In this document: positions 47,135 to 64,000 of the stretch, in pieces
Layout of the letters: each line of letters opens with the position of its first letter
Position numbering within the stretch: position 1 is the stretch's first letter
DNA from: Leucobacter aridicollis
GTDB taxonomy: Bacteria > Actinomycetota > Actinomycetes > Actinomycetales > Microbacteriaceae
Assembly (NCBI RefSeq): GCF_024399335.1
Contig: NZ_CP075339.1
Coordinates: 558,001 to 622,000, forward strand
DNA: 64,000 bases
Direction: 5' to 3'
Program-made: the position numbers and the translations under genes
The notes under the pieces: generated by a model
Database searches by the model: none
The model's input: only the letters and a program-made list of their open reading frames with translations
Told to the model about the DNA's origin: nothing

Positions 47135-48436
47135 ATGACGACTGAGACAGTGCTTCGCGCCGACTCCATGCTCACGCCGGCCGGGACGGTGGCCCCCGCA
47201 GAGCTCGCCTTCGATGAGACGGGGCGCATCAGCTACGCCGGGCCGCCGCGCGCCGAAAGCGTTGTGACGCATGACCTCGCGGGCCATGCGCTCATGCCGG
47301 GGCTCACCAACGGTCATACCCACTCGGCCATGACCCTCCAGCGAGGCGTGTCAGACGACGAGAGTTTCATGCAGTGGCTCGCGACCGTGCAGGGCATCGA
47401 GCAGCGGCTCACCCACGACGATCTCGTCGCGGGGCTCGAGCTTGCGCTGCTCGAGATGATTGAGACAGGGACTGTCGCGTTCGCTGACATGTATTACTGG
47501 GATGAGGCGCTCATCGAGCGAGTTCGCGCTGCCGGCATGCGCGTGTTTGCGGCGCTAGCGTGCAGTGCGAGCGACCACGTTGCCTACCCAACTGTCTCTC
47601 CGATGACGGGGGCCGAGGTGCTCGACGAGGTCGAACGGCTCGCAGACCGCTACCGCGAGGACCCACTCGTGCGGGTAGGCTTCGGGCCCCACGCCCCCTA
47701 CACGTGCACACCCGAGTTTCTGCGCGAGGTGCGGGAGCGGGCGCTCGCCGGCAACATTCCGATCCACACTCACGTCTCGGAGTCGGCTGCCGAGGTCGCG
47801 CAGATTCGAGAGCAGTACGGGAAAACGCCTGGAGATCATCTCGCATCGCTCGACTTCTTCGACGCTGAGGTGCACGCCGCGCACTGTGTGCACCTCACCG
47901 AGGGCGAGATCTCGACGTTTGCCGAGACCGGCACTTCCATCAGCCACAACCCTGTCTCGAACCTCAAGCTTGGCAACGGTATCGCCCCGTTTCCCGAGAT
48001 GATCGGCGCTGGCCTCGCGCTCGCGATCGGCACTGACTCGGTCGCGAGTAACAACTCGCTTGACCTGTTCGAGGAGTTGAAGCACGCAACGATTCTGCAC
48101 CGGGGGGCTCGCCAGGACGCGGCGGCAGTGCTCGGTCCGCAGGTGCTCGACATTGCGACGAGGGGTGGCGCCGCTGCAATCGGGTTCGCTGATTCGGGGG
48201 TACTCGAAGCAGGCAAGTTCGCCGATGTCGTCGCGGTCGATCTTCGCGGCACAGCGGCTGCGCCACTCGCGCCAGAGTCCCTCGTGGCGCATCTCGTCTA
48301 TGGTGCGACCGGAAGGGACGTGCGGCATGTCTTCATCGGAGGCCGTCACGTCTATGCAGACGGGGAGCACCTCACGCTTGATGCCGAGGGTGTACGCGAG
48401 CGCGCGCGGGTCGCGCGAGCCCGGCTCGTGTCGTAG
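47135..48436 (+). CDS. Amidohydrolase, MTA/SAH deaminase (MtaD)-like
   Basis: Metal-dependent deaminase of the TIM-barrel amidohydrolase family, 433 residues. Metal ligands: MPGLTNGHTHSAMTL, PIHTHVSESAAEVAQI, VHAAHCVHLTEGEI and LAIGTDSVASNNSLDLFEEL. The block VGFGPHAPYTCTPEFL is typical of 5-methylthioadenosine/S-adenosylhomocysteine deaminases and related guanine/TRZ-type enzymes. If it deaminates SAH, it would compete with the nucleosidase-LuxS route downstream (inference). The substrate is otherwise not proven. Confidence 0.85.
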   Translation: MTTETVLRADSMLTPAGTVAPAELAFDETGRISYAGPPRAESVVTHDLAGHALMPGLTNGHTHSAMTLQRGVSDDESFMQWLATVQGIEQRLTHDDLVAGLELALLEMIETGTVAFADMYYWDEALIERVRAAGMRVFAALACSASDHVAYPTVSPMTGAEVLDEVERLADRYREDPLVRVGFGPHAPYTCTPEFLREVRERALAGNIPIHTHVSESAAEVAQIREQYGKTPGDHLASLDFFDAEVHAAHCVHLTEGEISTFAETGTSISHNPVSNLKLGNGIAPFPEMIGAGLALAIGTDSVASNNSLDLFEELKHATILHRGARQDAAAVLGPQVLDIATRGGAAAIGFADSGVLEAGKFADVVAVDLRGTAAAPLAPESLVAHLVYGATGRDVRHVFIGGRHVYADGEHLTLDAEGVRERARVARARLVS

Positions 48437-48461
48437 CTAGCGGTCGGCAGTTCGAATCGTA

Positions 48462-48493
48462 GAAAGCTCCCTCGCCAAGGCGGGGGAGCTTTC
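48462..48493 (+). terminator. Terminator after amidohydrolase gene
   Basis: GAAAGCTCCC (48462-48471) pairs with GGGAGCTTTC (48484-48493), with an inner CGCC/GGCG extension. Confidence 0.8.
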
Positions 48494-48573
48494 GCGTTAC
48501 TCACTCCAAGCGGCTGAGTAGCGACTGAGTATCAGGGGGTCACCGTGCGGTGATGAACGATTGATGATTTTTC

Positions 48574-48602
48574 TTCACGCCTGAGAATTTCGTGTATAGA
48601 AT
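48574..48602 (+). promoter_or_regulatory. Promoter of surface-protein operon
   Basis: TTCACG (48574-48579) and TAGAAT (48597-48602) with a 17-bp spacer in an AT-rich patch of about 100 bp that stands out from the GC-rich surroundings. The leader would be about 90 nt. Confidence 0.55.
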
Positions 48603-48701
48603 CCCAATTAACTTGCTGTTTGTTGCCTTGCTATTTCGCTTGCGGTCGCCGTGAGTGACTGCGGTTTCCGCGAATCTGCTGTGGCTACATGAGCAGATTG
48701 G

Positions 48702-49271
48702 ATGGGGGACATGACCGCAACGAAGCATCATAGCCACGGCGTTGCCGAAGCTGACGATTCACCGGGCGTCGTCGACGAGGCGCGTCCCGAGAGCATCGAC
48801 GCTGGCACGCAGTCTGACGACTCGACTGCGACCGGTACTCAGTGCCGCACCAGGCGAGCAGTCATAGCGGGCGCCCTCGGGATCGGGCTCGTCGCGGGCG
48901 GTGGGATCTGGCTCGCCCTCCCACACGGCACAACCGACCCCCGCCTGCCAGCTGGATTTCCGACAACACAAGAGGTGCCAATCGCCGCGGGCGAGGTGAC
49001 TACCTCGATACTCATCGGCTCGCAATGGCAGGTCGATTTGCATGTCGATGACTATGAGGCGCAGCTCGCCGCCATCGAAGACCTGCAAGGAGCCGGTTTT
49101 GCGCTCAAGGGCCAGCAGGGCTCTGGGCCAATCGGAACTGTGAGCGCGTTGAGTAGCGAAAGCCACTCAGCGCGCGTTGAGTTTGGACAAGACCACGACG
49201 GCAACTTCACAGTGAAGTACGTCGTCTCGGAGAGCCAGGGCGCTCCCCAGAACGAAGGGAACGCGAAGTGA
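48702..49271 (+). CDS. Membrane-anchored protein preceding the giant surface protein
   Basis: A 189-residue protein: acidic, Thr/Ser-rich cytoplasmic N-terminus (about 1-48), a Cys-Arg-Thr-Arg-Arg boundary, one membrane segment (AVIAGALGIGLVAGGGIWLA) and an external domain of about 115 residues without recognised family. The start may be ATG 48702 or ATG 48711. Its stop overlaps the giant gene start by 4 bp, so the two products are made together; a role in export or display of the surface protein is an inference. Confidence 0.8.
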   Translation: MGDMTATKHHSHGVAEADDSPGVVDEARPESIDAGTQSDDSTATGTQCRTRRAVIAGALGIGLVAGGGIWLALPHGTTDPRLPAGFPTTQEVPIAAGEVTTSILIGSQWQVDLHVDDYEAQLAAIEDLQGAGFALKGQQGSGPIGTVSALSSESHSARVEFGQDHDGNFTVKYVVSESQGAPQNEGNAK

Positions 49272-52200
49272 GGATCACACATTCGGCAGGCACCCAGAGC
49301 TCCGGGCACCCGCATCGACGCCGAGAACAGCGAGCGCGCACCAGGCGGCAGCGGTTGGCCGGGGTCATCGTCGCGGCGCTTCTCGGCACCTCCGCCGCGG
49401 CGTTCGGACCGCTCGCGGTAGCGAGCCCGGCGCTCGCCGCCGGTACGCCCCACGGTGAGGTCGTCGGCATCGTCGAGTGGCCCGCAGACGCTGACCTCCA
49501 CGCAGGTGGTGTGTGGGGCGGCGGCGACTTCAACCTGATCGTCGGAACGACAGGCACTCCGACCACGGCGATCAAGCGGTTCAACGTGAACGCCGCTGGA
49601 GGCCCGACAGGGACTCGCAACTCGTACAACCTTGGAGTCAGCGCGCACGCGGTGAACCCGGGCATCTATGCGACTGCGGGGTTGAACCTCGGCGGACGCT
49701 CAGCGGCATCGCCTGAGGCGCTCGCCCACTACGGCTTTGCGAACACGGTCTGGGTGGACTGGAGTCCGTCGACTGACAACGGCTCTGGCGAGAAGGGGAA
49801 GACATACTCGATCGAGATCCCGTCTCCCACGGTTGCCGAGGCCAACGCGGCCGGAAAACCGATTCACCGTGACTTCACCAACTCCTCGTGCGGTATGGAA
49901 GTGAACCCATACACGAGTGAGCTCGTCATTCTGAACAACTGTACGGCGAACGAAAACCGCGTGCAGTACCTCGTACTGAACCCAGGACCAGACGGCGATC
50001 CGTTGACGATGGAAGACAACAGCTTCGATTGGTTTGTCGCCAACCCCCTCACCGCCAACGGTGGCGCGGTCAGTGACATGACGATCGATGCGCTCGGCAA
50101 CGTTTACAACTTCCTCTCGCCCGCAGTCGGGAGCGGCAGCATTGTGCGAACCGACGCCCAGACGGGGGCGGTTGCCACAGTCGGAACGTGGAATCAAGGG
50201 CCGTCAGAGCCTACCGGCATATACGAGTGGGTCTCCCTCGCGTTCCTCGACGGGAAAATGGTCGTACCGACGGGAAATATCAACTCAGGCCAGAAGCTGT
50301 TTGCAGTCGACCCGCTCACGGGCAAGGCCGAGGCGATTCCTGGCTACACGCCCGGACTTCTCAACCGCAACTACGTGAACTATGACGGAGCTGGTGTCGA
50401 GGGGGCCGTCGGCCTGCAGGGCAAGGTCGTAGACGTGAACGGGACCGGGCTCGCGAACCAGACGGTGGCGATTTACCAAGACAACGGCGATGGAACCGCG
50501 ACGCTACAGGGCTCCCGGCCAACTGACGCGAACGGCGAGTATGCAGCGCTGCTGAACTGGTCAAACGGCGTTGGCTACGTGCGCGTCGTGCAGCCGCAGC
50601 TCACGACTGGCGCCGGCGCAACTGCTGAGGCCAAGAACGGTGAGGTCGTTGCCGCAGAGGTCGCAACCCTTGTGAACGACAACACGAACTCGATCGAAGT
50701 GTTGAACGAGGGCAACAACGGCGTGAACCCGCCGCTTGGAACCCCGCTCACCACAACGATCAGCGTTGCTGACACCGACGACCTCGTGAAGATCACGGGC
50801 AACAACGCGTCGGTGTTCTACACCGCAGACTTCACCGTCGCATTCGCTGGCTCGACCGCCGACCTCTCTCGGAACAGCCTGCTCAGCACAGACGCCACCG
50901 CGGGCAACGGGCCTCAGCACCTCAACGTTGCAGGGGATTCAAGCGGAGACCTGAGACTCGGCGCAACGAACGGCGAATATACTGTCGGCGCGACAGACAA
51001 CAGCCACGCGAGCGATGATGGTGTGTTCTTGAACCTCGCGGGCGACACTCCGCTCGCGAAAGACCAGCTGTTCGCCAGCGGCCAGACCTACCCGATGCGT
51101 GCGGTGAGCGAGGGCGCGCAGGCGGCGAACGCGAAGGTAGGGGCGTGGCTCTCAGCCGCGGGCGCCCAGAACGCGAACCCGCGAGGTGCGTTCGGCGACG
51201 GAGTGTTCGGGACAGGAGCGACAGTCGATTTTGACCTCGTCTTCCCGTCGACCGCGGGCTTCTCGACGCTGCGCGTCAACTCCTCGCTCGCAGACGTCAC
51301 GAAGCCAGACAACACGCTCGGCGAGTACGCGGCGACGGCCGCCACCTCAGGTACTAAGCCGTGGACGACGCCTGGCGAGGTCGAAGACTACGACGTCAAG
51401 ACGGTCTCCTCGGTCGTTCGTGTGTCAGCCGAGAGCAGCGTCACAGGGTCGTACGCCTACACGCTGACGGGCGTGTCTACGACTGCGCCCTCGACGACAA
51501 CTGCTGAGGTCGTTGTGAGTGACGCGGGTGAGACCACACCGTCGAGCACGGTGCACGAAGGCACTGTTGGCACCGACGTCGTTGTCAGCCCGACAGCGAC
51601 ACCGGCCGGAACTGTGCTCAAGTCGGCAAAGATCATCAATGCGCTCACGGGCGACGAGATCGGAGAGGCGACATTCACCTCGGCTGGTGTCGTGACGATT
51701 CCCGGAACTGCAGTCACGATGGGCTCCGACATCCGCGTGATCCTCACCTACAGCGAGGATCCATCCGCCGAGGACTCGACCCTTGAGCTCGCGCCCGCGA
51801 CCGCCGAGGCAAACGGCACGAGTTCGATCACCGCAACCGTGACAGTTGTTGGCGGTGTCTCTGGTGAGCCGCTCGCGGGCCAGGTCGTGAAGATCGTTGC
51901 GGATCCGGCAAACGCCGACGTGACAGTGTCGAACGTCACCGACAACGGGGACGGGACCTACACAGCGACGATTACAAGCTCGGTGCCAGGCACGTATCCG
52001 ATCGCCGCGACTGTTGAGATCGCCGGAAGCGACGAAGCGGTCTCGGGCTCGCCCGCAGACGCGGTCTTCACCGCCGGTGCACCGAGCGCAACCGAATCGG
52101 TATGGGAGATCGACAAGACGGGCCCCCTTCAGGCGGGGAGCGGCGCGGGCAGCACCTACACCGCAACCGCGACGGTGAAGGACGCAACCGGAAACGCTGT

Positions 52201-55200
52201 CGGTGCCGGGGTCGACGTGAGCTTCACCGTGCCCGCTGGGGTCAACGGGTTCACGGAAGAAACCGTTGTCGTCGTTCCGACTGACGCGAGCGGGGTCGCA
52301 AGCCTCGCGCTTGTCAGCTCTGTAGCTGGCGAGTATGTCTTCACTGCCGGACTCGGAGCTGAGCAGATCGGCGCAAGCGAGACGCGGGCGTGGACCGCGG
52401 CGGCAGCTGATACTGCGCATTCCGATTTCTCGGTGACGAGCGGGGTGAAGACTGCTGATGGGACCGCGCAGCACGTGTTGACTGCCGCGGTCGCGGATGA
52501 GTTTGACAACCCGGTTTCGGGTGAAGAAGTGACATTCACGCTCCCTGCGGGGGCTGAGTATGCGGGAACGACCGCGGGCACCTGGGTGTCAGGAACGACC
52601 GGAACGATTGTTGTTGCGACCGACGCTGCGGGTGCCGCGGCGATCGGGGTGACCTCGACGGCGGCAGCCACGTATTCGGTTGCCGGTGCGATCGGGGCCG
52701 GAGCGCTTCCGGGTTCGCCGGCCGATATCGAGTTCGGGGCTGGTGAGGTTGATGCTTCCGCTTCGAGCTGGGAGATCACGCCGGCTGGCCCGATTGCGGC
52801 TGGCGGGACCTACACGGTCACGGTGACCGCGAAGGATAGCTCGGGTAATCCTGTTGCCGGTGCTGACGTCGCGCTCACTCTTCCGGCCGATGTCACCATC
52901 GTTAGTGGCGGTGCTGCGACTGGAACTTCGGGTGCAGACGGCACTGTCGTTTTCGAGATCACGTCGACTGTGAAGGGCAGTCACGATGTCTCTGCAACGA
53001 TCGGTGGTGACCCGGTTGGTGGGGCAGGGGCTGGTACCAAGTCTGTCGAGTTCACCGCGGCGGCAGCTGATACTGCGCATTCCGATTTCTCGGTGACGAG
53101 CGGGGTGAAGACTGCTGATGGGACCGCGCAGCACGTGTTGACTGCCGCGGTCGCGGATGAGTTTGACAACCCGGTTTCGGGTGAAGAAGTGACATTCACG
53201 CTCCCTGCGGGGGCTGAGTATGCGGGAACGACCGCGGGCACCTGGGTGTCAGGAACGACCGGAACGATTGTTGTTGCGACCGACGCTGCGGGTGCCGCGG
53301 CGATCGGGGTGACCTCGACGGCGGCAGCCACGTATTCGGTTGCCGGTGCGATCGGGGCCGGAGCGCTTCCGGGTTCGCCGGCCGATATCGAGTTCGGGGC
53401 TGGTGAGGTTGATGCTTCCGCTTCGAGCTGGGAGATCACGCCGGCTGGCCCGATTGCGGCTGGTGGAACGTACACGGTCACGGTGACCGCGAAGGATAGC
53501 TCGGGTAATCCTGTTGCCGGTGCTGACGTCGCGCTCACTCTTCCGGCCGATGTCACCATCGTTAGTGGCGGTGCTGCGACTGGAACTTCGGGTGCAGACG
53601 GCACTGTCGTTTTCGAGATCACGTCGACTGTGAAGGGCAGTCACGATGTCTCTGCAACGATCGGTGGTGACCCGGTTGGTGGGGCAGGGGCTGGTACCAA
53701 GTCTGTCGAGTTCACCGCGGCGGCACCTGACGCTTCTCAGTCAGCCATGACCGCAACTACTGGTGTCGTTACCGCGGATGGTACCGCGAGTCACAAGGCG
53801 ACAGCGACAGTCAAGGACAGCTACGGAAATACTGTCGGAGCCGGTGTCACGGTGACGTTCACCTTCCCGGCGGACGTTGTGGGGGCCGGTGGCGCCTCGC
53901 CGCAGACAGTCGTCACGGACGCCGACGGAAAAGCAGCGCTTCAGCTGACCTCTGTGGTCGCCGGCACGTACGAGGTCGCGGCCACGATCGACGTTGCCGG
54001 CACGGCGACAGCGATCTCAGGATCGCCCGTGTCAGTTGAGTTCGGATCAGGCGGGGCTTCGGCAGCGAACTCCACCTGGGAGATCACTCCGGCTTACGGA
54101 ACTGTGGCAGCCGGCGGCACCTACACCGCCAAAGTGACTGTGCGCGACGCGACTGACAACCTCGTCGAGGGTGAAGTCGTCACGTTTGAATTCCCCTCAG
54201 GCGTGAACGGGACTGGCGTGACGAGCGGGACAGCGACAACAGGCGCAGACGGTGTAGCCTCGTTCGAGCTCACCTCTGAGACAGCATGGGTTGACTTCCC
54301 AATCGCTGCACTCGTCGCAGGAACTGCTGTAGACCCAGCGACGATCCCGATCCAGTTCACTGCTGGCTCAGCGAGCCTCGAAACCTCGACGATTGTGGTC
54401 GATCCCACAACCATAGACGTCGGGTCTGAGCCGCCGGGGACCGCAACGGTCACCGTGCAGCTCAAGGATGCCTTCGGCAACGATGTCCACGACAACACTG
54501 CGACTGTCGTCATCGAGACGAGCGTAGGTACGATCACCGCGACGGCTGCTGCCGGGTCTGACACAGGCAGCTACACGGCTGAACTCTCGGGCACGACGGC
54601 TGACCTGGTAGACGGTCAGGCAACCACTGCTGATCTCTCGTTCACGGTTGACGGAGCGGAAGCAACTGCAACCGCAAGTGCGAAGCTCATCGACGATACG
54701 GCCCCGCTCGCGCCCACGGTCGACTCGACCGATGGTGGCGTGGTGACCGGTACCGCCGAACCCGGATCGACGGTTGTCATTCGTGACCCAGATACGGGCG
54801 ACGTGCTGTGCGAGACGACGGCTGACCCGACAACTGGTGCCTTTGCGTGTGGCTCGGCAGACCAGCCGCTTCCACCAGGCAAGCACGAGGTTGTCGCAGT
54901 GGACCCGGGAGGCAACGAGTCTCCGTCAACGCCCATTACAGTGGCAAAGCCCCCCGTCGTCGATTCGACTGATGGTGGTGTCGTGACTGGTGAGGGTGAG
55001 CCTGGTGACACGATCGAGGTGCGCGATCCCGATACTGGCGAGGTGCTGTGCTCCACCGTTGTGAAGCCTGACGGCACATTCGAGTGTGGCCCGATTGAGG
55101 GCGGCGGCGACCTGGAGGTCGTGCAGATCGATCCGGAGGGGAACGAGTCGGCCCCGATTGAGATCACGGTGACGAAGCCGCCGAAGGTTGACTCCACCGA

Positions 55201-57421
55201 CGGTGGTGTGATCACCGGTGAGGGTGAGCCTGGTGACACGATCGAGGTCCGCGATCCCGATACTGGCGAGGTGCTGTGCTCCACCGTTGTGAAGCCTGAC
55301 GGCACATTCGAGTGTGGCCCGATTGAGGGCGGCGGCGACCTGGAGGTCGTGCAGATCGATCCGGAGGGGAACGAGTCGGCCCCGATTGAGATCACGGTGA
55401 CGAAGCCGCCGAAGGTTGACTCCACCGACGGTGGTGTGATCACCGGTGAGGGTGAGCCCGGCGACACGATCGAGGTCCGCGATCCGGACACGGGCGAGGT
55501 GCTGTGCTCCACCGTTGTGAAGCCTGACGGCACATTCGAGTGCGGCCCGATTGAGGGCGGCGGCGACCTGGAGGTTGTGCAGATTGACCCGGATGGGAAC
55601 GAGTCGGCGCCGATTGAGATCACGGTGACGAAGCCGCCGAAGGTTGACTCCACCGACGGTGGTGTGATCACCGGTGAGGGTGAGCCCGGCGACACGATCG
55701 AGGTCCGCGATCCGGACACGGGCGAGGTGCTGTGCTCCACCGTTGTGAAGCCTGACGGCACATTCGAGTGTGGCCCGATTGAGGGCGGCGGCGACCTGGA
55801 GGTCGTGCAGATCGATCCGGAGGGGAACGAGTCGGCCCCGATTGAGATCACGGTGACGAAGCCGCCGAAGGTTGACTCCACCGACGGTGGTGTGATCACC
55901 GGTGAGGGTGAGCCCGGCGACACGATCGAGGTCCGCGATCCGGACACGGGCGAGGTGCTGTGCTCCACCGTTGTGAAGCCTGACGGCACATTCGAGTGCG
56001 GCCCGATTGAGGGCGGCGGCGACCTGGAGGTTGTGCAGATTGACCCGGATGGGAACGAGTCGGCGCCGATTGAGATCACGGTGACGAAGCCGCCGAAGGT
56101 TGACTCCACCGACGGTGGTGTGATCACCGGTGAGGGTGAGCCCGGCGACACGATCGAGGTCCGCGATCCGGACACGGGCGAGGTGCTGTGCTCCACCGTT
56201 GTGAAGCCTGACGGCACATTCGAGTGTGGCCCGATTGAGGGCGGCGGCGACCTGGAGGTTGTGCAGATCGACCCCGATGGGAACGAGTCCGCTCCGATCG
56301 AGATCACGGTGACGAAGCCACCGAAGGTTGACTCCACCGATGGTGGTGTCGTGACCGGTGAGGGTGAGCCTGGTGACACGATCGAGGTGCGTGACCCGGA
56401 CACTGGTGAGGTGCTCTGCTCGACGACGGTGAAGCCTGACGGGTCGTTCGAGTGTGGCCCGATTAAGGGCGGCGGCGACCTGGAGGTTGTGCAGATTGAC
56501 CCGGATGGGAACGAGTCGGCGCCGATTGAGATCACGGTGACGAAGCCGCCGAAGGTTGACTCCACCGACGGTGGTGTCGTGACTGGTGAGGGTGAGCCTG
56601 GTGACACGATCGAGGTCCGCGATCCGGACACGGGTGAGGTGCTGTGTTCCACGACGGTGAAGCCTGACGGCACCTTCGAATGTGGCCCGATCGGTGACGG
56701 CTCATTTGAAGTTGTGCAGATCGATCCAGACGGCAACGAGTCGGCCCCGGTGCAGGTCATCGTGGATACAACTCCGCCGGCGCCCCCAGTTGTCAACCCG
56801 ACTGACGGCAAGACTGTCGGCGGCACCGCTGAGCCGGGGTCAACAGTGACAGTGAAGGATAAGGACGGCAACGTCGTCTGTGAGACTGTCGCAGCGGCAG
56901 ATGGCAAGTGGAGCTGCACGCTCGAGCCACCTGTGCAGCCGGGCACGTCACTGTCAGTCACCGCTACGGATTCGCACGGCAACGTTTCGGAGCCGACAGT
57001 GATCCAGGTCGGCAGCCCCTGGATGGAGCTGTCAGCCAAGACGCTGAAGCGCGGCGAGACTCTCGTCATCACTGGCCACTGGTTCGCGCCTGGCGAGAGT
57101 GTCGCGGGGTCGATCAAATCTGAAACCGTCGAGCTCGGTACTCAGGTCGCGAACGAGAACGGCGAGGTTGTGTTCGAATTCAAGATCCCAGCTGACTTCG
57201 AACTCGGCGACCACACCGCGTTCCTTGACGGGGCAGACTCCGAGCTCCTGCAGCTCCCGTTCGAGGTTGTTGCGGTGACGCCGCCGAAGCCTGACCCGGG
57301 CCTGCCGGGCACTGGCGGACAGCTGCCGTTCATCGGCGGCGCGGCGGCACTCCTGCTTCTCGCAGGCGGCGCGACTGCTCTCATCCTCCGGAGGCGGTCG
57401 GGTGCACGGGAATCGGCCTAG
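49268..57421 (+). CDS. Giant LPXTG-anchored surface protein with Ig-like repeats
   Basis: A 2717-residue secreted protein, GTG start in a 4-bp overlap. Arg-rich N-terminus and signal segment (about 28-58, ending PALAAG). Residues 60-395 form a domain I do not recognise, then a CnaB-like unit (about 400-460) and a GEVED domain ending GEVEDYDV near 703. From about 835 to 1790 lie invasin/Big-1-like beta domains, including two 220-residue copies (1043-1262, 1263-1482). Eight 76-residue repeats occupy 1895-2500, flanked by two divergent relatives. LPGTG at 2679, a hydrophobic helix and RRRSGARESA form the sortase signal. Likely adhesin or cell-surface stalk. Confidence 0.9.
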   Translation: MRITHSAGTQSSGHPHRRREQRARTRRQRLAGVIVAALLGTSAAAFGPLAVASPALAAGTPHGEVVGIVEWPADADLHAGGVWGGGDFNLIVGTTGTPTTAIKRFNVNAAGGPTGTRNSYNLGVSAHAVNPGIYATAGLNLGGRSAASPEALAHYGFANTVWVDWSPSTDNGSGEKGKTYSIEIPSPTVAEANAAGKPIHRDFTNSSCGMEVNPYTSELVILNNCTANENRVQYLVLNPGPDGDPLTMEDNSFDWFVANPLTANGGAVSDMTIDALGNVYNFLSPAVGSGSIVRTDAQTGAVATVGTWNQGPSEPTGIYEWVSLAFLDGKMVVPTGNINSGQKLFAVDPLTGKAEAIPGYTPGLLNRNYVNYDGAGVEGAVGLQGKVVDVNGTGLANQTVAIYQDNGDGTATLQGSRPTDANGEYAALLNWSNGVGYVRVVQPQLTTGAGATAEAKNGEVVAAEVATLVNDNTNSIEVLNEGNNGVNPPLGTPLTTTISVADTDDLVKITGNNASVFYTADFTVAFAGSTADLSRNSLLSTDATAGNGPQHLNVAGDSSGDLRLGATNGEYTVGATDNSHASDDGVFLNLAGDTPLAKDQLFASGQTYPMRAVSEGAQAANAKVGAWLSAAGAQNANPRGAFGDGVFGTGATVDFDLVFPSTAGFSTLRVNSSLADVTKPDNTLGEYAATAATSGTKPWTTPGEVEDYDVKTVSSVVRVSAESSVTGSYAYTLTGVSTTAPSTTTAEVVVSDAGETTPSSTVHEGTVGTDVVVSPTATPAGTVLKSAKIINALTGDEIGEATFTSAGVVTIPGTAVTMGSDIRVILTYSEDPSAEDSTLELAPATAEANGTSSITATVTVVGGVSGEPLAGQVVKIVADPANADVTVSNVTDNGDGTYTATITSSVPGTYPIAATVEIAGSDEAVSGSPADAVFTAGAPSATESVWEIDKTGPLQAGSGAGSTYTATATVKDATGNAVGAGVDVSFTVPAGVNGFTEETVVVVPTDASGVASLALVSSVAGEYVFTAGLGAEQIGASETRAWTAAAADTAHSDFSVTSGVKTADGTAQHVLTAAVADEFDNPVSGEEVTFTLPAGAEYAGTTAGTWVSGTTGTIVVATDAAGAAAIGVTSTAAATYSVAGAIGAGALPGSPADIEFGAGEVDASASSWEITPAGPIAAGGTYTVTVTAKDSSGNPVAGADVALTLPADVTIVSGGAATGTSGADGTVVFEITSTVKGSHDVSATIGGDPVGGAGAGTKSVEFTAAAADTAHSDFSVTSGVKTADGTAQHVLTAAVADEFDNPVSGEEVTFTLPAGAEYAGTTAGTWVSGTTGTIVVATDAAGAAAIGVTSTAAATYSVAGAIGAGALPGSPADIEFGAGEVDASASSWEITPAGPIAAGGTYTVTVTAKDSSGNPVAGADVALTLPADVTIVSGGAATGTSGADGTVVFEITSTVKGSHDVSATIGGDPVGGAGAGTKSVEFTAAAPDASQSAMTATTGVVTADGTASHKATATVKDSYGNTVGAGVTVTFTFPADVVGAGGASPQTVVTDADGKAALQLTSVVAGTYEVAATIDVAGTATAISGSPVSVEFGSGGASAANSTWEITPAYGTVAAGGTYTAKVTVRDATDNLVEGEVVTFEFPSGVNGTGVTSGTATTGADGVASFELTSETAWVDFPIAALVAGTAVDPATIPIQFTAGSASLETSTIVVDPTTIDVGSEPPGTATVTVQLKDAFGNDVHDNTATVVIETSVGTITATAAAGSDTGSYTAELSGTTADLVDGQATTADLSFTVDGAEATATASAKLIDDTAPLAPTVDSTDGGVVTGTAEPGSTVVIRDPDTGDVLCETTADPTTGAFACGSADQPLPPGKHEVVAVDPGGNESPSTPITVAKPPVVDSTDGGVVTGEGEPGDTIEVRDPDTGEVLCSTVVKPDGTFECGPIEGGGDLEVVQIDPEGNESAPIEITVTKPPKVDSTDGGVITGEGEPGDTIEVRDPDTGEVLCSTVVKPDGTFECGPIEGGGDLEVVQIDPEGNESAPIEITVTKPPKVDSTDGGVITGEGEPGDTIEVRDPDTGEVLCSTVVKPDGTFECGPIEGGGDLEVVQIDPDGNESAPIEITVTKPPKVDSTDGGVITGEGEPGDTIEVRDPDTGEVLCSTVVKPDGTFECGPIEGGGDLEVVQIDPEGNESAPIEITVTKPPKVDSTDGGVITGEGEPGDTIEVRDPDTGEVLCSTVVKPDGTFECGPIEGGGDLEVVQIDPDGNESAPIEITVTKPPKVDSTDGGVITGEGEPGDTIEVRDPDTGEVLCSTVVKPDGTFECGPIEGGGDLEVVQIDPDGNESAPIEITVTKPPKVDSTDGGVVTGEGEPGDTIEVRDPDTGEVLCSTTVKPDGSFECGPIKGGGDLEVVQIDPDGNESAPIEITVTKPPKVDSTDGGVVTGEGEPGDTIEVRDPDTGEVLCSTTVKPDGTFECGPIGDGSFEVVQIDPDGNESAPVQVIVDTTPPAPPVVNPTDGKTVGGTAEPGSTVTVKDKDGNVVCETVAAADGKWSCTLEPPVQPGTSLSVTATDSHGNVSEPTVIQVGSPWMELSAKTLKRGETLVITGHWFAPGESVAGSIKSETVELGTQVANENGEVVFEFKIPADFELGDHTAFLDGADSELLQLPFEVVAVTPPKPDPGLPGTGGQLPFIGGAAALLLLAGGATALILRRRSGARESA
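52394..53713. repeat. 660-bp tandem duplication inside the giant gene
   Basis: Copy 1 is 52394-53053, copy 2 is 53054-53713. Line-by-line reading finds only three differences, all near 52804-52810 versus 53464-53470 and all synonymous. A partial third unit starts with the same 18 bases at 53714 before diverging. Confidence 0.95.
54950..56767. repeat. Eight 228-bp repeats in the giant gene
   Basis: Units begin at 54950, 55178, 55406, 55634, 55862, 56090, 56318 and 56546; the last is 222 bp. Each encodes PP(K/V)VDSTDGGV(I/V)TG, EPGDTIEVRDPDTGEVLCST, DG(T/S)FECGPI and IDP(E/D)GNESAP, with Cys at unit positions 34 and 46. Units are mosaics at DNA level: unit 4 matches unit 3 in its first half and unit 2 in its second. 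Confidence 0.95.
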
Positions 57422-57426
57422 GAAGT

Positions 57427-57469
57427 AAGATGCGCAGCGTCGGAACACTGTTCCGACGCTGCGCATCTT
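57427..57469. terminator. Bidirectional terminator between giant gene and luxS
   Basis: Perfect 20-bp arms (57427-57446 and 57450-57469) around ACT, AAGATG / CATCTT at the outer ends. Confidence 0.85.
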
Positions 57470-57520
57470 GCTGCCAGTGGGGGAGCGGGTCGCCACTCAC
57501 CGCGGCCGCGCGCGTGCTGG

Positions 57521-61559: not shown

Positions 61560-62537
61560 CTACGACCACTTGGGCCGCGGTGGCTGCCACTCGCCGATCT
61601 TCGCGAAGAGCTCGGCCGGCTCGGTCGCGACGATCAGTGCGCCCCTTGCCTCAGGCTTTGAGAACCCAGCGTCGACCATCGCGTCGATCGCGCCCATGAG
61701 CGGCTGCCAGTATCCCTCGATGTCGTAGAGCGCCACAGGCTTCGTGTGGATGCCGAGCGTCACCCACGTCCACACCTCGAAGATCTCCTCGAGGGTTCCT
61801 GGGCCACCCGGAAGCGCGACGAAGGCATCGGTGAGTTCAGCCATTCGGCGCTTGCGATCTGGCATCGACGCAACGACCTCAAGACGGGTGAGCCCCGTGT
61901 GTCCGGTCTCGCCGTTGAGCAGCGCTTCCGTGATGACGCCGAACGCGCTGCCTCCTGCGTCGAGCACGGCGTCGGCAACAGTGCCCATGAGGCCGACCTT
62001 GCCGCCACCGTAGACGAGTTCGATGCCCGCTCGCGCCATCGCACCGCCGAATTCGCGCGCACCAGTGGCGAAGGCGTCGGAGTTACCGAACGCCGACCCT
62101 GTGAACACCGCAAGGCGCTGCGCTGGGCGTTCGGGTCGTGCGAGGGCTGGGAAGATGTGCTCGATGTTGAGCGGCGCCATCGCGGGGTTCTCTTCGTGTG
62201 GGTCTGCCCATTCGAGATGTTCAATCTCGGCGAGTGGGCGGTCAACCGCGACGTAGGGATGCTCGAACACGTGCGCGATGACGTCGCGCTCGGGCTCGTT
62301 GGCGGCTGGGGAGCGGAACTGCCCGAGGCCGCGAAGACGGAGCGGATCGAGTTCCACTCCGAGTTCCTCTCGGAACTCGCGGATTGCGGTGTCTCGGGGA
62401 TCCTCGCCGGTCTCCGGTTTTCCGCCGGGAAGCATGAGCGAATCGGTTCCGCGCTTTCTGACGTTGAGGACCCTGCCCTCAGCGTCGCGAATGACGACAG
62501 CGCTGACCCGAATGGGCTCGGCTAGGTGTTCGGCCAA
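61560..62537 (-). CDS. Nudix hydrolase-LOG family fusion
   Basis: A two-domain cytosolic protein of about 325 residues. The N-terminal half is a Nudix domain with a perfect box (GKPETGEDPRDTAI then REFREELGV). The C-terminal half is a TIGR00730/LOG nucleotide-phosphoribohydrolase domain: AVFTGSAFGNSDAFATGA, LVYGGGKVGLMGTVADAVLD, SMPDRKRRM and ALPGGPGTLEEIFEVWTW. TTG 62537 is chosen because AGGAG lies 8 nt upstream; this overlaps the gene before it by 16 bp. LOG enzymes release the base from nucleoside monophosphates, so a nucleotide clean-up role is inferred. Confidence 0.88.
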   Translation of the reverse strand: MAEHLAEPIRVSAVVIRDAEGRVLNVRKRGTDSLMLPGGKPETGEDPRDTAIREFREELGVELDPLRLRGLGQFRSPAANEPERDVIAHVFEHPYVAVDRPLAEIEHLEWADPHEENPAMAPLNIEHIFPALARPERPAQRLAVFTGSAFGNSDAFATGAREFGGAMARAGIELVYGGGKVGLMGTVADAVLDAGGSAFGVITEALLNGETGHTGLTRLEVVASMPDRKRRMAELTDAFVALPGGPGTLEEIFEVWTWVTLGIHTKPVALYDIEGYWQPLMGAIDAMVDAGFSKPEARGALIVATEPAELFAKIGEWQPPRPKWS

Positions 62538-62833
62538 TCGACGATCTCCTCGTACTCGGGGTGCTTCTTCAGCCACGCCGACACGTAGGGGCAATACGGA
62601 ACGATGCGCATTCCAGCGGCGCGCGTGTCAGCCATGGCTTCAGTGACAAGCGTACCGGCGAGGCCGCGGCCGCCGAACTCGGGGCTGACCTCGGTGTGAA
62701 CGAACGCGCGGGCGTTGCCGCGAGCTGGCACCCGGTACTCAGTGAAGCCGGCGAGCGTCTCGCCGAGGTAGATGGCGTACCGTACGTCGTCGGGCTCGTG
62801 CGCGACTCGTACCTGCTCTGGTGCTTCGGACAT
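62522..62833 (-). CDS. GNAT-like acetyltransferase domain with its own start
   Basis: A 103-residue unit of the small YidJ/NAT-DUF type: IYLGETLAGFTEYRVPARG, then VHTEVSPEFGGRGLAGTLVT and RIVPYCPYVSAWLKKHPEYE. It is in frame with the pirin gene and no stop separates them, but ATG 62833 is preceded by GAGGAGG at 5 nt spacing, so it can be translated alone. Acceptor substrate unknown. Confidence 0.8.
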   Translation of the reverse strand: MSEAPEQVRVAHEPDDVRYAIYLGETLAGFTEYRVPARGNARAFVHTEVSPEFGGRGLAGTLVTEAMADTRAAGMRIVPYCPYVSAWLKKHPEYEEIVDWPNT

Positions 62834-63925
62834 GGGCGCCTCCTCGGAAGACTGTTGCGATTGTGAACTTGAAGTTGCGCCGCTGTTTGCCGTTGCGAGC
62901 GTCACTGTTGTGGCAGGAAGCGGGCCGAGCTTGCTCCGCGGCACCAGCCGCGCTGTCGGCAGCTCTGGTGCGGGAAGTGGTGGCTCTGGCTCGTCATCTG
63001 GCAGTCCGAACCGATCAGCGGCGTCGGGTTTCCGGGTGCTGATCGTCTCCTGCCACGCGTCGCGTGCGGCGGCGACCTCCTCGTGGGAGCCGCCGATGAA
63101 GTTCCACCACATTACGAGCTCGTCCTCGAATGGCGCGCCACCGATGAGGAGGAGGTGTGCGCCGTCTGCTCCAGCGGTGATCGTGAGCTCAGCGCACCCG
63201 GCAGCGGCAAAGCCGAGGTCATTTGCGCGGAGCGATGTACCTTCGGCCTTGTCAGGTGAGAGCGTTGCCGAGCCGGTGTCAACGAGCAGACCGTGCTCGT
63301 GGGTCGGCTCAACTTCGAGAGTGAGGCTCGTTCCCGCCTCGAGGGTGAGCTCGGCCCCAACGAGCGGCGTGTGTGTCTCGACGGGGGAGTGCTGCCCGAG
63401 CAGCGAGCCGAGGAACACCTGAGCCGTGTAGCCGTCGCCGGTGAGAAGCGGTGGCACGTAGTGGTCGAACCGCTTTGCGATGCCGCGCGCGTGTGCGGGG
63501 AGCGCGATCCAGAGCTGTGCGCCGTGCAGCAGTGTGGTGTCGGGGGTTGAACGCTCGGAGTGGCTGATTCCTGAGCCAGCGGTCATGAGATTCAGCTCGC
63601 CGGGGCGAACCATCGCGTGGTTGCCCGCGCTGTCGCGGTGCTCGATGGTGCCCGAAAAGAGCCAACTCGCGGTCTACAGTCCCGTGTGGGGATGTGCGCG
63701 AACCTGCATGCCGCCTGACTCTGCGACATCATCGGGGCCGTAGTGGTCGAGAAAGCACCAGGCGCCGATGAGGCTGCGACCCCGCTGGGGGAGTGTGCGG
63801 CGCACCGGCATGCCTCGGAGGCCGCCAAGCGGCACCTCCCTCGGTTCAAGTACCTCTACAGCGCCCGCGGTGCCTGGGCCTGCAGCGCAGACAGTTTCTT
63901 CGGGCTGTGCCTCAAGATTGCTCAT
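62522..63925 (-). pseudogene. Pirin family gene with GNAT extension, interrupted by an in-frame amber codon
   Basis: Cupin-fold pirin. ATG 63925 has AAGGAG upstream. The frame reads RTLPQRGRSLIGAWCFLDHY and GGMQVRAHPHTGL, then TAG at 63674-63676, and goes on in the same frame as TASWLFSGTIEHRDSAGNHA, MVRPGELNLMTAGSGISHSE and GGAPFEDELVMWWNFIGGSH to the pirin end near PELPTARLVPR. Pirins have Gln (CAG) where the TAG stands, so one C-to-T change explains it. After a linker of about 35 residues the frame continues into the GNAT unit. Metal ligands (His pairs before the stop and H in SGISHSE) are kept. A sequencing error, recent inactivation or readthrough cannot be told apart here. Confidence 0.85.
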
Positions 63926-64000
63926 GATTGTGCTCCTTTTGGAGATCCTAACCCTTGGGCACCGGGGGGCCCAACCAGAGGAGTACAAGGAACACAATCA

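Follow-up and report, generated by a model that had tools for sequence, protein, structure and literature searches.

A lone in-frame amber codon, probably a very recent nonsense mutation, in the sole pirin gene of a Leucobacter strain, and a candidate internal start for the fused GNAT domain

Analysis of a 64,000-nucleotide stretch of the Leucobacter aridicollis genome (the window) revealed a gene in which two pirin domains are followed by a GNAT acetyltransferase domain, and in which the reading frame is interrupted once, by an amber codon in the first pirin domain. The sequence-only reading of this DNA had taken the gene to encode pirin only; the pirin domains are indeed present, but the GNAT extension had been overlooked. 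The features of the locus are as follows:

62522..63925, minus strand: pirin-GNAT gene of 467 codons including the amber, followed by a terminal TAG; intact full-length homologues exist
63933..63938, minus strand: AAGGAG, an intact Shine-Dalgarno-like motif 7 nt upstream of the pirin ATG, identified by eye
63674..63676, minus strand: in-frame amber TAG at codon 84, from the sequence and its alignment to relatives
63506..63808, minus strand: Pirin domain (PF02678) over residues 40-140, interrupted by the amber; the match has E 9.1e-29 when the stop is read as X
63047..63355, minus strand: Pirin_C domain (PF05726), residues 191-293, Pfam match
62839..62845, minus strand: GAGGAGG at the pirin/GNAT joint, resembling a Shine-Dalgarno motif and followed after 5 nt by an in-frame ATG
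62831..62833, minus strand: ATG at residue 365, candidate internal start for a stand-alone GNAT
62546..62782, minus strand: GNAT domain (PF14542), residues 382-460, Pfam match

The amber codon shares its frame with the ATG at 63925-63923 and with the pirin blocks downstream, and translation from 63925 yields 83 residues before the stop is reached. No frame damage was found in the gene besides the TAG at codon 84, and comparison with the orthologue in the intact sister genome G005 gave a single end-to-end alignment with four gap positions and no frameshift; the second TAG is the terminator of this same gene. These results bear out the earlier claims that a lone amber interrupts an otherwise intact pirin gene and that the frame and the downstream pirin blocks are preserved on either side of it. 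With X in place of the stop, the Pirin match, which spans the site, scored 100.1 bits against a curated cut-off of 26.1 and Pirin_C scored 57.3 bits against 27, and the GNAT domain, which is free of stops, scored 87.8 bits against a cut-off of 30. The 83-residue piece upstream of the amber matched no Pfam family on its own, and the piece downstream retains half of Pirin, plus Pirin_C and GNAT.

The pirin-GNAT gene is preceded on the same strand by a DUF3817 protein gene, which ends 22 nt short of the pirin ATG, and is followed by a single ORF (61560-62594 of the window) in which NUDIX and Lysine_decarbox (LOG-like) domains are combined. As listed, this ORF begins within the end of the GNAT gene, so its true start probably lies further in. 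Elsewhere in the window, about 9 kb (48430-57518) found no match in the G005 stretches, which are collinear with the rest, and a 2717-aa ORF within it (49268-57421) shows weak similarity (23%) to an ORF of 2967 aa next to the G005 pirin. About 600 bases past the window end, a divergent 3010-aa ORF (L144:2617-11649) carries a VWA domain and DUF11 repeats and has an LPxTG-like end (LPVTGAQLG), which we take to mark it as perhaps a sortase-anchored surface protein.

The position of the amber also bears on the metal site. PMC11304471 gives the iron ligands of human pirin as His56, His58, His101 and Glu103. Aligned via P0003, which is collinear with the Leucobacter gene across that part, these ligands correspond to H78, H80, H122 and E124, and the resulting H, H, H, E set is conserved in 152 of 153 homologues among the matches listed. 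Amber 84 sits between H80 and H122 and thus places the two ligand pairs on separate polypeptides, so that the broken frame does not supply all four ligands in one polypeptide. Because the amber falls between the pairs, neither fragment would be expected to hold the pirin metal site.

Comparison with relatives, which the sequence-only reading had called for, indicated that, among the genes compared, the stop occurs in the present one only. Of 109 other loci, 90 have Gln at the position of codon 84, the remaining 19 have Ala, and none carries a stop there (81 Gln and 18 Ala in the 99 loci left after duplicates were merged); in 153 homologous proteins among the matches listed, it is Gln in 148, Ser in four and Ala in one. 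In close relatives the family residue is therefore Gln, as had been proposed, with Ala and Ser tolerated as well. The nearest intact copies are those of the ENA protein P0002 (94% identical), G005 (87%) and G019 (81%), and of the 38 Leucobacter genomes in which Pirin was matched, only one, that of the present strain, has a stop inside the match. A search with the downstream fragment likewise revealed no second copy of the amber allele, the best of at least 120 matches listed being P0002 at 92%. The earlier reading had also held that finding the two parts as separate genes in relatives would speak against a broken gene. A gene split at codon 84 was ruled out, since none of the 109 other loci is divided there; where relatives do have separate genes, the boundary lies near codon 330-350 and separates pirin from GNAT.

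Estimates of selection showed no sign of decay beyond the stop itself. Relative to G005, dN/dS was 0.058 in codons 1-83 and 0.143 in codons 85-300; the linker (301-380) gave a value of 0.164 and the GNAT codons (381-467) one of 0.083. When single-base codon changes were assigned to lineages with G019 as the outgroup, at sites where sister and outgroup agree, the synonymous to nonsynonymous counts were 47:9 in the present gene and 45:7 in intact G005, and thus a nonsynonymous excess is absent on the present lineage. Within codons 85-300, the counts were 18 and 6 in the present gene versus 18 and 3 in G005, a slightly higher nonsynonymous number but too few changes to tell. With G005 as the outgroup and codon 84 excluded, the present protein has eight unique residues and P0002 has 11, of which residues 1-300 contain one in each of these 94% identical proteins. 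With both types of count close to those of intact relatives, pirin was under selection until recently on the present lineage, a pattern compatible with a newly arisen mutation, with an assembly error or with full-length expression that still continues.

The sequence-only reading had left three explanations standing: a very recent nonsense mutation, a sequencing error and a read-through site. The probable explanation, in our view, is that a nonsense mutation arose very recently in the sole pirin gene of this strain, given that close relatives have intact orthologues and the stop is found in the present gene only. The main rival is a single-base sequencing or assembly error, in which case the living strain keeps an intact gene. 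The gene is well kept on both sides of the site with no sign of decay on its lineage, one wrong base would be enough, and, with the assembly sequence of one isolate standing for the species, such an error would yield an identical picture. Yet the assembly proved clean where it was tested. Domain matches were checked for ABC_tran (150 of 202 candidates scored, with 151 reported), BPD_transp_1 (82) and MFS_1 (64), these being counts of matches rather than genes, since some genes give two; stops were flagged in three of the 296 listed matches, all MFS and all overrunning the end of their own gene, so that no true internal stop was left among the 296 after checking. A GNAT-like match with two stops overruns the start of its gene. 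The window was also compared with the syntenic stretches of G005, counting hits above 55% identity: of the 44 G005 ORFs with a hit, six met stops on the window side and all stayed in one piece, while five further ORFs had no hit and one had a weak hit. In three of the flagged ORFs (in the 2172, 8659 and 25707 regions) the stops precede the likely start of the window's own gene, and two others (7486-6560 and 13210-12137, at 74% and 70% identity) were judged by overlap to be antisense to other ORFs, leaving pirin as the sole real break among the six, although how the other five were sorted is a matter of judgement. Together, the G005 comparison and the domain-match checks led us to reject both a poor assembly and decay by nonsense mutations across the genome. 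A clean genome lowers the probability of a one-base error without bringing it to zero, and we regard such an error as unlikely, though a serious contender. A restriction or methylation hotspot at the site was also considered; the one palindrome counted in the window occurred 41 times versus 21.9 expected from base content and offered nothing useful.

Read-through, programmed or tolerated, in which some ribosomes insert an amino acid at the UAG to give a full-length protein, would account for the intact frame and the selection beyond the amber, and the occurrence of Gln, Ala and Ser at position 84 suggests that an inserted residue might be tolerated. The stop is not conserved in any of the 109 other loci, however, and neither a suppressor tRNA nor a stimulatory RNA structure was found: none of 49 tRNA matches has a CUA anticodon (a family search of the genome with every anticodon read, which tRNAs missed by that search would escape), and the fold of the 100 nt after the amber was no better than that of shuffled sequences (z −0.74, versus −0.53 for almost the equivalent 100 nt of intact G005, in a pseudoknot-free model). 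Moreover, the same gene is itself terminated by another TAG, and we hold read-through to be very improbable. Reassignment of TAG as a sense codon has the amber site in its favour and nothing further. It is contradicted by the use of TAG as a terminator, since of 38 coding-like ORFs picked mechanically in the window 15 end in TAG (15 in TGA and eight in TAA), by the lack of a cognate tRNA among the 49, by the 296 listed domain matches with no internal TAG after checking, and by the release factors. The genome encodes an RF1-type and an RF2-type factor, and both frames are open; the factor at C1:2680515-2681093 carries the PVT motif of RF1, and the other carries SPF as in RF2. Recoding of TAG is thus excluded in practice, and the chance that it explains this site is negligible. 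In sum, recent nonsense is the best supported of the three earlier explanations and read-through is disfavoured; the amber looks like an ordinary loss-of-function mutation or a one-base error rather than a new reading of the code. The tRNA search also returned two extra low-scoring tRNA-Cys (GCA) genes (L167:77-148 and L168:82-152, at 47.4 and 43.9 bits), which are alike by eye and unusual; a further tRNA-Cys scores 66 bits.

The pirin/GNAT joint contains signals that could allow the GNAT domain to be made on its own. The GAGGAGG motif that precedes the ATG at residue 365 likewise precedes an ATG in G005, a GTG in G019 and a TTG in G035. An in-frame start codon with a Shine-Dalgarno motif of at least five bases was present at the joint in 13 of 15 distinct fused ORFs, the present one included, and absent in two (L006 and L007). 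Start-like codons were accompanied by such a motif in 15 of 28 cases within the joint interval versus 11 of 295 elsewhere (Fisher p 8e-12, for 15 ORFs that are related to one another); the interval, 85-130 codons before the ORF end, was chosen after the joint sequences had been viewed, and some of the joint hits are weak GTG starts (L008, L023 and L048). Fused ORFs with this combination include L003, L004, L005, L038, L042, L049 and L088. From these motifs, separate translation of GNAT from the joint start is plausible rather than proved, and their recurrence suggests a GNAT-only second product from fused pirin-GNAT ORFs. We tentatively raise the idea, which we think somewhat less likely to be right than wrong, that fused genes are two-product genes that retained the old GNAT ribosome binding site and start and so give both the fusion and free GNAT, with the present amber acting as a natural GNAT-only switch.

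The distribution of pirin in the genus provides a context for its loss. The present genome, a single 3.60 Mb contig, has no second Pirin match at E 0.001, and a Pirin match was found in 38 of 54 Leucobacter genomes searched (the present one included) but was absent in 16, among them 13 of 45 near-complete ones. Because other Leucobacter genomes have no Pirin match, we infer that pirin is dispensable in the genus. The arrangement with GNAT also varies: the 110 loci scanned, including the present gene and duplicates, comprise 20 fused loci, 44 with separate genes and 46 without a GNAT nearby, and removal of duplicates left 15 fused loci (the present one included) and 39 separate.

Thus, we propose that a fresh nonsense mutation at codon 84 ends pirin translation after 83 residues and that, with the ligand pairs on different polypeptides, no working pirin would be made. 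Ribosomes would probably reload at the GAGGAGG-ATG (62845-62831) and make the GNAT acetyltransferase alone. The GNAT half is probably spared by the amber because this signal stands at the joint, as it does in most fused ORFs. Free GNAT would then resemble that of relatives in which GNAT is a separate gene, and loss of pirin would be tolerated because pirin appears dispensable in the genus. The stop itself, another fresh null allele or an error in the sequence, is of little import in a gene that is dispensable; the joint is the useful part. If the two-product reading is true, the gene can lose pirin function without losing GNAT. More generally, if the internal start is kept in fused genes, a nonsense mutation in the first domain would leave the second active, and annotation of these genes as one "bifunctional" protein overlooks a second product.

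Comparison with known proteins places the gene among familiar systems. The H-x-H ... H-x-E pattern of human pirin (PDB 1j1l) aligns at residues 78, 80, 122 and 124, but in human pirin no stop separates the ligand pairs, unlike in the present gene. The chains of PDB 1j1l and of the bacterial pirin family protein PDB 6d0g (290 and 318 residues) are too short for an additional GNAT. A literature search on pirin-GNAT fusions returned nothing related by title or abstract, which is no proof of absence in print. The closest counterparts are proteins annotated as bifunctional pirin family protein/GNAT family N-acetyltransferase in Leucobacter komagatae and Streptomyces, which have the same Pirin, Pirin_C and PF14542 domains; the L. 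komagatae protein (476 aa) is of similar length and 71% identical to the present gene, and P0002, at 94% identity, also shares the domain set. The present gene differs from these proteins in its amber at residue 84, and the GAGGAGG-ATG at its joint may permit separate GNAT synthesis. Recent nonsense-allele pseudogenes form a general class in bacteria, characterized, like the present gene, by one stop, an intact frame and no clear relaxation of selection. Within that class the present gene is nothing special, except that its second domain may escape the stop through a start of its own.
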